Below the pieces are notes generated by a model that was given only the letters and a program-made list of their open reading frames with translations, ran no database searches and was not told where the DNA came from. The translations under genes were made by a program, and so were the position numbers. From contig QBMK01000006.1 of the NCBI GenBank assembly GCA_003249035.1, positions 186,001 through 250,000 of the forward strand: a stretch of DNA of 64,000 nucleotides, given 5' to 3'. This DNA is from Pseudanabaena sp. (GTDB lineage: Bacteria > Cyanobacteriota > Cyanobacteriia > Pseudanabaenales > Pseudanabaenaceae). This document shows positions 5,226 through 60,405 of this stretch, piece by piece (the first letter of the stretch is position 1; the number at the start of each line of letters is the position of its first letter).

Positions 5226-5282
5226 TAAAACCCAAATAGATGAAGGCGGCGCTTCGCGCCGCCTTCATCTATTTGGGTTTTA
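5226..5282. terminator. 57-nt perfect hairpin (27-bp stem, TTC loop), probable bidirectional terminator
   Basis: Arms 5226-5252 and 5256-5282 are perfectly complementary. The outer part reads TAAAACCCAAATAGATG and the core is GGCGGCGC/GCGCCGCC. A-rich and T-rich ends on the two sides would let it terminate transcription in both directions. It lies between the convergent NurA-like gene (ends 5125) and GTPase gene (ends 5325). Its size, loop length and first bases equal those of the hairpins at 2531, 36847, 47754 and 59754. Confidence 0.8.
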
Positions 5283-36846: not shown

Positions 36847-36848
<2 letters not shown>

Positions 36849-36903
36849 AACCTAACTAAAAAGAAAGGCTCGCGCAGCGAGCCTTTCTTTTTAGTTAGGT
36901 TTT
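36847..36903. terminator. 57-nt perfect hairpin at the end of petH (27-bp stem, GCA loop)
   Basis: Arms 36847-36873 and 36877-36903 pair perfectly. The outer part is AAAACCTAACTAAAAAG and the core GGCTCGC/GCGAGCC. The petH stop TAA (36846-36848) overlaps its first bases. The T-rich 3' end (CTTTCTTTTTAGTT) fits intrinsic termination. Confidence 0.85.
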
Positions 36904-46403: not shown

Positions 46404-47756
46404 ATGAAAAAGATTTTTGTACTTGATACTAATGTGCTGTTGTACGATCCAACAGCCATGAGGCGTTTTGAAGATAATGAAGTCGTCTTACCGATGACAA
46501 TTATTGAAGAACTCGATCGCTTTAAAAAACAGCCTGAGATGATCGGACGCAATGCAAGACAAGTTTCACGATCCTTAGACGAATTGAGAATGCAAGGGAA
46601 TATTCTCAAAGGTATTGACCTCGAAAATGGCGGCTTGCTGCGAGTTGCCCTGTGCGATCGCGAAACTTTAAAAACCCTGCCTGTTGAACTTGAAGGCGAT
46701 CGCAATGACAATGCAATTTTGGCGGTTGCACTCGAACTCAAGCGCAGTTGTCAATGTCGTGTCGTCATGGTCAGTAAGGATACCAACCTTCGCATCAAAG
46801 CTGATGCATTAGGACTGGAAGCCCAAGATTACGAGACCAATAAGGTCGATATCTCTGAACTCTATACAGGCATTACCGATCTAACAGTGGATGCAGCAAA
46901 AATCGATCAGCTTTTTAAGAATGGTGCGATTACCGTTGATGGTGAATTTTACCCAAATCAAGCTGTGATGCTGATCGATCAGCTGAATCCATCTCATACG
47001 GCTTTAGCGATCTCTAGTAGTAGCAATCATAATTCCACCAAACTGGTTGCTATTAATAAGCTCGTCAACTCAGGAGTTGTAGGCATCAATGCTCGTAATC
47101 GCGAACAAAAATTTGCCCTTGATCTTTTGCTCAACGATGCAATTCCCTTAGTCACCCTCGTTGGTAAGGCTGGCACAGGCAAGACTTTGTTAGCGATCGC
47201 GGTGGGATTGCACAAGGTTGCGGATGAGCGAGTTTATACGAGACTGTTGATTTCGCGTCCTGTAATTCCAATGGGTAAAGACATAGGCTTTCTCCCAGGG
47301 GATATCAAAGAAAAACTCACCCCTTGGATGCAACCCATTTACGATAATTTCGATTTGATTTTTGGTTCACAGTCTCCTAAAGATCCAAAAGAAAAGCGTA
47401 GTCTGCATACCCATACTCGACGAGGACATGAAGACTTAATGGAGCGAGGACTGCTTCAGATTGAGCCACTCACCTACATTCGAGGGCGGACGATTCCTCA
47501 GCAATTTCTGATTGTGGACGAAGCCCAAAACCTTACGCCCCATGAGCTTAAGACTATTCTTACCCGAGCTGGTGAAGGAACTAAAGTAGTTCTAACGGGC
47601 GACCCTGAACAAATCGATAATCCCTATATCGACGCTGCCAGTAACGGTCTAACCTATGTAGTTGAGCGATTTAAAAACGATCCTCTGGCGGGACATATTA
47701 CCCTCAGTAAGGGTGAACGCTCTCAGTTAGCAGAACGTTCTACAGAACTCCTTTAA
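46404..47756 (+). CDS. PhoH-like ATPase with N-terminal PIN domain
   Basis: The 450-residue protein has an N-terminal PIN domain (KIFVLDTNVLLYDPTAMRRF, DRNDNAILAVAL, VSKDTNLRIKADALG) and a C-terminal PhoH ATPase domain. The latter shows Walker A VGKAGTGKTLLAIAVGL near residue 253 and Walker B FLIVDEAQNLTPHELKTILTRAG near 370, with TGDPEQIDNPY. PIN-PhoH (PhoH2-type) proteins are ATP-dependent RNA helicases/RNases. It is a full-length single gene, with the stop codon inside a 57-nt hairpin. Confidence 0.93.
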   Translation: MKKIFVLDTNVLLYDPTAMRRFEDNEVVLPMTIIEELDRFKKQPEMIGRNARQVSRSLDELRMQGNILKGIDLENGGLLRVALCDRETLKTLPVELEGDRNDNAILAVALELKRSCQCRVVMVSKDTNLRIKADALGLEAQDYETNKVDISELYTGITDLTVDAAKIDQLFKNGAITVDGEFYPNQAVMLIDQLNPSHTALAISSSSNHNSTKLVAINKLVNSGVVGINARNREQKFALDLLLNDAIPLVTLVGKAGTGKTLLAIAVGLHKVADERVYTRLLISRPVIPMGKDIGFLPGDIKEKLTPWMQPIYDNFDLIFGSQSPKDPKEKRSLHTHTRRGHEDLMERGLLQIEPLTYIRGRTIPQQFLIVDEAQNLTPHELKTILTRAGEGTKVVLTGDPEQIDNPYIDAASNGLTYVVERFKNDPLAGHITLSKGERSQLAERSTELL

Positions 47757-47810
47757 GCCCAAAAAGATGAGAGGCGGCGCTTTGCGCCGCCTCTCATCTT
47801 TTTGGGCTTA
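47754..47810. terminator. 57-nt perfect hairpin at the end of the PIN-PhoH gene (27-bp stem, TTT loop)
   Basis: Arms 47754-47780 and 47784-47810 pair perfectly. The 5' arm begins with the stop codon (TAAGCCCAAAAAGATGAG) and the core is GGCGGCGC/GCGCCGCC. The 3' arm has a T-run (CATCTTTTTGGGC). Confidence 0.87.
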
Positions 47811-51342: not shown

Positions 51343-51397
51343 AAAACCCTAGAATTGATTAACGGCGAGGATCGCCGTTAATCAATTCTAGGGTTTT
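51343..51397. terminator. 26-bp perfect hairpin with GGA loop
   Basis: Arms 51343-51368 and 51372-51397; the arm begins AAAACCCTAGAATTGATT and the core is AACGGCGA/TCGCCGTT. It lies 69 nt past the Pnkp-like stop and upstream of alaS. Confidence 0.82.
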
Positions 51398-59659: not shown

Positions 59660-59753
59660 ATTAGATTTTGTATTGATTTGCCAAAACTGTTGAGCACTAT
59701 TAGTTTGGAAGATGTTGATAATGTCTTCGGTAGTACGAAGGAATGATAATTTA

Positions 59754-59841
59754 ATAAAACCCAAAATTGGTTAGGCGGGCGAAGCCCGCCTAACCAATTT
59801 TGGGTTTTATATGCACACGTTATTTAATTTTCATTCCTAAG
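59754..59841. repeat. 88-bp dispersed hairpin repeat (copy 2)
   Basis: Arms 59754-59780 and 59784-59810 form a perfect 27-bp stem with loop GAA; the tail 59811-59841 matches copy 1. Compared with 2531-2618, the stem pair C-G is A-T here, keeping the pairing, and the loop is the reverse complement of TTC. It lies about 95 nt past the psb28 stop with T-rich ends. Confidence 0.9.
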
Positions 59842-59903
59842 GATGTTTACCAGATATTTCTTGGTTCTAAGACTGATGACAATATAATCACTATTTAATT
59901 TTT

Positions 59904-60198
59904 AACCTACGGTTCGACTACCCCTACAGGTAGCATTTTGAGTGTTACCAAATACTACATATAGCGTCACAAGCTAAACTTATACGCTATATGTAGCGGG
60001 GCAGTATATTAACCCAAGTTGCTACCTATCAAAAATCACTTCAAAATAGCTTGAAACTAGCCTTGCAAAGCATTAAATGCTGTTATTTTTATATAAATAC
60101 CTGATATTTATCGTTTTAAGTTGAGTTTTAAGCCAATAGGTAGCAACTTGGGTTATATTAGGAAACACTACCTGTAGAAAATGGTCGAACCGTAGGTT
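59904..60198. mobile_element. 295-bp element of nested inverted repeats (unclassified)
   Basis: Outer repeats: AACCTACGGTTCGAC (59904-59918) with GTCGAACCGTAGGTT (60184-60198), followed inward by CTACAGGTAG (59924-59933) with CTACCTGTAG (60168-60177). Inner repeats: AACCCAAGTTGCTACCTAT (60011-60029) with its complement (60136-60154). A separate 13-bp hairpin, CTACATATAGCGT/ACGCTATATGTAG, lies at 59955-59996. TTAATTT occurs on both flanks. No coding frame exists. It could be a MITE or a structured RNA. Confidence 0.75.
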
Positions 60199-60405
60199 TT
60201 AATTTACCTTTGACTTAAATAGACGCTGTCAAACGCTGTCAAAGTGATCGCAATTATTTTCGCTATTTCCCAAAGATAAAAGGAGATAAAGCATATTGCA
60301 CATAATCTCCTTTTATCTGAATCTAAGCGTGGTGGTGATATCACCTAAACTAGGATCGATATCGTTAAAATTATCGATATTTTCAAAAGATCTGTTCAGT
60401 GGACT

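Follow-up and report, generated by a model that had tools for sequence, protein, structure and literature searches.

The DNA analysed here, referred to below as the window, is a stretch of 64,000 nucleotides from a Pseudanabaena genome. In the interval between psb28 and the DUF3531 gene, it contains a 295-bp region of inverted repeats (59904-60198). A sequence-only reading of this region had described four inverted pairs, and all four were located where it had placed them, far beyond what is expected by chance (fold z about -13). The inner pair, 60010-60029/60136-60155, is perfect over 20 bp. A duplication of TATATTA around this pair, which is absent from the sequence-only reading, marks the inner 142 bp as a separate element, and the remainder of the region can be joined into a palindrome of its own. 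The features are listed below in window coordinates, with the strand given where there is one.

59900..59905, TTTTAA, possible left target duplication; short, AT-rich and weak
59904..60011, left part of the outer palindrome, from the fold of the joined sequence; single copy
59904..59918, + strand, left arm AACCTACGGTTCGAC of the outer 15-bp inverted repeat; perfect
59924..59933, + strand, left arm of the 10-bp inverted repeat CTACAGGTAG, from repeat inspection
59955..59996, 13-bp perfect hairpin CTACATATAGCGT...ACGCTATATGTAG in the outer palindrome (arms 59955-59967/59984-59996)
60005..60011, TATATTA, left target-site duplication; perfect, 7 bp
60012..60153, 142-bp element classed as a MITE of IS982 type, with copies in its own genome and in congeners
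60012..60029, + strand, left 18-bp TIR ACCCAAGTTGCTACCTAT, equal to one end of a 907-bp IS982 element (own genome, G002 and G005)
60136..60153, - strand, right 18-bp TIR, perfect inverted partner of the left TIR
60154..60160, TATATTA, right target-site duplication; perfect, 7 bp
60161..60198, right part of the outer palindrome, from the fold of the joined sequence
60168..60177, - strand, right arm of the 10-bp inverted repeat, from repeat inspection
60184..60198, - strand, right arm of the outer 15-bp inverted repeat; perfect
60197..60202, TTTTAA, possible right target duplication; short, AT-rich and weak

The inner 142-bp element and its copies

The own genome (4.55 Mb in 60 contigs, 95.5% complete) was searched together with 57 other genomes, making 58 in all. 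With the 295-bp region as the query, 27 matches were obtained in the own genome, and all but the locus itself were restricted to the inner part. Complete copies of the inner element number 17 in this genome; they are 134-143 bp long, are bounded by ACCCAAGTTGCTACCTAT and its reverse complement, and form two groups that are about 72% alike between groups. The 16 copies other than that at the locus lie in unrelated flanks. A perfect, TA-rich duplication of 6-7 bp is found at 16 of the 17 copies, and all 17 lie clear of ORFs of at least 90 aa. When the copies of congeners are included, a perfect duplication of 6-8 bp is present at 31 of 34 copies (22 of 6 bp, eight of 7 bp and one of 8 bp), and the duplications mostly start with TA and end with TA. 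The TIR pattern gave 20 + 26 matches in the own genome, as against 0 + 1 for its reversed control.

Related copies were detected in nine of the 57 other genomes, which are congeners without exception. Named records that carry the element are Pseudanabaena lw0831, Pseudanabaena biceps PCC 7429 and a Pseudanabaena metagenome genome, and a plasmid of P. galeata has a partial match. The element is short and non-coding (no ORF of at least 50 aa), has perfect 18-bp TIRs, is dispersed in multiple copies with duplications, and has an end in common with an autonomous element at 18 of 18 positions; as classified by its sequence, it is an IS982-family MITE. No earlier description of an IS982-type MITE family of Pseudanabaena was found in the literature searched.

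Two copies on other contigs (G000:C29:18203-18344 and G000:C8:21805-21946) are identical to the copy at the locus, and hence the insertion at the locus is considered to be recent. No orthologous empty site for it was found among the genomes compared; psb28 and the DUF3531 gene are adjacent solely in the own genome among these, so that no such site is available for checking.

The 907-bp IS982 element and its ends in other phyla

At C20:44805-45711 of the own genome lies a 907-bp element with MITE-like ends; the IS982 transposase model matches it in two broken frames, the transposase being interrupted by in-frame stops. Intact 907-bp relatives with a 276-aa transposase, 90-93% identical to the own copy, are present in G002, G005 and G021, and the duplications flanking the element in relatives are TATTTA, TACTTA and TAGATTTA. 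The transposase of G002 scored 192.7 bits on NF033520, above the cut-off of 130 for the IS982 family. Upstream of its transposase gene, the IS ends in ACCCAAGTTGCTACCTAT, which agrees with the MITE end at 18 of 18 positions (17 in G021), while the other end, ACCTAAGTTGCTACCCATAG, differs from the MITE ends at two bases. This second end overlaps the final codons of the transposase (..NLWVAT, stop), and this overlap is a possible reason for the difference and for both MITE ends looking like the upstream end. Beyond the terminal 18 bp, the MITE and the 907-bp IS have nothing significant in common; hence, the MITE did not arise from that IS by simple loss of its interior.

No intact transposase with MITE-type ends was found in the own assembly, which is 95.5% complete and broken at an IS copy. 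A second copy of the IS is cut by the start of contig C35 (53 bp, 100%), and therefore assembly breaks may conceal additional copies. The other IS982-type transposases of the own genome, located on C11 and C58, are remote from that of the 907-bp IS. Judged from the sequence of one of its ends, the 907-bp element is likely to be the helper of the MITE. In the mechanism proposed, a full-length 907-bp IS982 element with the end sequence of the MITE would supply a DDE transposase. This enzyme would bind both 18-bp ends of the MITE, would excise or copy the MITE, and would insert it where a TA-rich site has received a staggered cut, after which gap repair would leave direct repeats of 6-8 bp beside it. 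We infer that the MITE was moved by the transposase of the 907-bp IS. The analysis gives Pseudanabaena a well-supported IS982-type MITE family together with a likely helper.

The IS982 family is described as having AC ends, duplications of 2-10 bp, a length of 845-1282 bp and the end pattern AC(N)6T(N)5TT (PMC7335449). The 907-bp IS is alike in its ends (ACC..), in its duplications and length, which lie within these ranges, and in a transposase that scores over the NCBIfam cut-off. On comparing it with the end pattern, it was found that AC and the T at position 9 agree and that positions 15-16 are CT, which is half of the TT. The 142-bp element differs from the family in that it has no transposase. 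A MITE derived from IS982 is already known as a kind from Cardinium, an endosymbiont of the phylum Bacteroidota. This element, MITECca01, is about 240 bp long and derived from ISCca4, a member of the IS982 family (PMC9769881); as compared by description only, the MITE of Pseudanabaena is likewise short, non-coding, multi-copy and lineage-restricted, with IS982 ends, but is 142 bp long. In Microcystis, a MITE of 187 bp and ISL3 type was reported, with GGCTCTTCG ends and 8-bp duplications (PMC10969869, PMC11448079). Like the Pseudanabaena MITE it is non-autonomous, and it has a stem-loop, target duplications and a mainly intergenic location; however, it groups with ISL3, whereas the Pseudanabaena MITE groups with IS982. 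Nezha is referred to in the same sources as a cyanobacterial MITE, a non-autonomous repeat (PMC10969869, PMC11448079).

The exact 18-bp end was detected in at least 111 stretches of species genomes; as the scan required an exact end, this number indicates sharing and not how frequently the end diverges. Among the matches listed are Pseudanabaena, Poribacteria, Thermus, Chlamydiota, Parabeggiatoa, Thiomargarita and others. In Thermus and Poribacteria (loci among L312, L352, L332, L310 and L316), the end bounds stretches of 855-949 bp with transposases, which, among the matches listed, are about 39-41% (Thermus) and 52-57% (Poribacteria) identical to that of Pseudanabaena; several of these stretches have perfect duplications, e.g. 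TAGCTTA. Poribacteria also contain many short pairs of the 18-bp end, about 110-280 bp in length; 7-bp duplications are frequent among them, and those interiors that were examined gave no match to the Pseudanabaena MITE. The exact end is thus common to IS982 elements of cyanobacteria, Thermus and Poribacteria, whose transposases are 39-57% identical, and MITE-like elements that carry it around unrelated interiors are present in several phyla. In a wider reading, which is considered rather improbable, MITEs could be mobilised by IS982 elements that arrive from a different phylum if the ends were interchangeable, and the outer palindrome could besides be a rare undescribed element. With an end that is constant across phyla while the transposase goes down to about 40% identity, such cross-mobilisation is testable.

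The outer palindrome and the nesting at the locus

When 59904-60011 is joined to 60161-60198, the MITE and one TATATTA being omitted, a palindrome of 146 bp is obtained, which folds at -65.7/-74.8 kcal/mol (z -10.2/-11.0). The fold spans the joined site, and this supports the order in which the palindrome came first and the MITE later. The outer palindrome is single copy in its own genome and thus lacks the multiple copies of a MITE. No IS sharing its ends was found in the 58 genomes or in the plasmid and phage collections, and the search of these collections for the palindrome itself gave no matches. With respect to the flanks, TTAATTT had been proposed as a target duplication; it is indeed present to the left (59895-59901) and to the right (60199-60205), but its left copy lies 2 nt off the repeat. 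TTTTAA, which adjoins CCTACGGTTCGAC on both sides of the palindrome, is cleaner and therefore the better, though still weak, candidate, both motifs being AT-rich and TTTTAA being short.

The outer palindrome is probably the remnant of an older element, and it is not filed as a MITE. For these 146 bp alone, a hairpin that evolved locally, as a bidirectional terminator or regulatory stem, and was hit by the MITE by chance is a serious possibility, although we lean against it. Such an origin would agree with the single copy in the own genome and with the fact that intergenic hairpins are very common in Pseudanabaena; moreover, the 13-bp hairpin recurs once in the 57 other genomes searched, in G013, upstream of an ORF that we take, by eye, to be patatin-like. 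It agrees less well with the outer arms, which are imperfect and far apart compared with the tight, perfect hairpins elsewhere in the window, with the TTTTAA next to both 13-bp ends, and with a partial match of 46 bp and 80% identity (E 5e-5 per genome) in G018, out of 57 relatives searched, which is located near a presumably thiL-like gene named by eye.

Two candidate explanations of a more specific kind were rejected. One was that the 13-bp hairpin is an NrdR operator pair. A conserved operator would be expected to show its tandem boxes repeatedly among relatives, but they were found solely here and once in G013 among the 58 genomes, and their neighbours are psb28 and the DUF3531 gene here and the presumed patatin-like ORF in G013. 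A repeat family built on the motif CTACAGGTAGTGTTT was also considered; its matches were no commoner than those of a reversed control, and most of the contexts were unrelated.

It was concluded that the 295 bp are two things and not one element, namely a MITE and an older, single-copy palindrome. The region is very probably a nested insertion, in which a recent 142-bp IS982-family MITE lies in a pre-existing palindrome of ~146 bp in the psb28/DUF3531 interval. It is an element of an ordinary kind in an unusual nest, and a puzzling structure is resolved into two ordered events, the older palindrome and then the recent MITE. The guess of a MITE made in the sequence-only reading holds for the inner 142 bp, with its 17 complete copies, 18-bp TIRs, target duplications and IS982 partner; it does not extend to the 295 bp as a unit, as the outer palindrome is single copy and its parent element was not found. 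Searching cyanobacterial genomes for copies, as suggested there, divided the region in the same way, into a multi-copy inner and a single-copy outer part. The view that the region matches no known type of element fails for the inner part, which is of a type already published in Cardinium (PMC9769881).

The region as a whole folds at -114 kcal/mol on the + strand and -122 kcal/mol on the - strand, with z of -13.0 and -11.1, respectively, relative to dinucleotide shuffles, none of which was equally stable, and it is overlapped by no ORF of at least 50 aa. The rod-like fold and the lack of a coding frame that had been claimed for it are thus confirmed. A structured non-coding RNA, with the fold as its function, would account for the strong folding on both strands, but the source of the stability is a set of inverted repeats for which transposon ends are the explanation, and its strength hardly differs between the two strands. 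Furthermore, no Rfam family reaches its gathering threshold in the region, the two weak sigma-70-like promoter matches are fewer than in shuffles, and congeners lack a conserved counterpart of the outer part; an RNA is, hence, considered very unlikely. Least credible of all is a single composite element, with nested repeats made together and mobile as a unit, as might be suggested by arms that share a common centre (the side hairpin excepted), by the rod-like fold and by the flanking TTAATTT or TTTTAA, since recurrence is confined to the inner 142 bp, whose 16 other complete copies have unrelated flanks and which has its own perfect duplication, and since the outer part is without a second copy in the own genome; one new element of 295 bp is not supported.

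Other hairpins and inverted repeats

Between genes, many perfect, short-looped hairpins of 20-28 bp occur in the window at 5226-5282, 36847-36903, 47754-47810, 51343-51397, 59754-59810 and other positions, and also at the congener loci L139, L144, L149 and L169. A subset of these has AAAACCC-like ends and a GC-rich tip in common, the middle of the stem being variable, and the hairpins may be two-way terminators or may form a family of variable palindromes. At 59739-59838 and 2530-2588, perfect hairpins (27 and 28 bp, with a 3-nt loop) are followed by a matching downstream flank, TGCAC..GTTATTTAATTTTCATTCCT; hairpin and flank together are a second small dispersed repeat. The hairpin in 59739-59838 is enclosed by outer arms, AGGAATGA..TCATTCCT. 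Among the contexts of the CTACAGGTAGTGTTT motif, one hairpin, at C11:223600, appears similar.

In G018 (C127, locus L107), the partial relative of the outer palindrome has as its neighbour a small inverted-repeat element of another kind, the ends of which are GCACTGGACAGTTAA. Two copies of an inverted-repeat element of roughly 100 bp with ends TTGGACTTTGGACAA were observed in G006 (L207 and L210), and this is apparently another MITE. In a congener (L384, G002:C1:389900-391700, positions 256-1427), a copy of the IS982-type MITE is apparently split by an insert, with its TAAATA flanks intact. The insert has a transposase frame that we take, by eye, to be IS630-like, and it appears to be another nested insertion.
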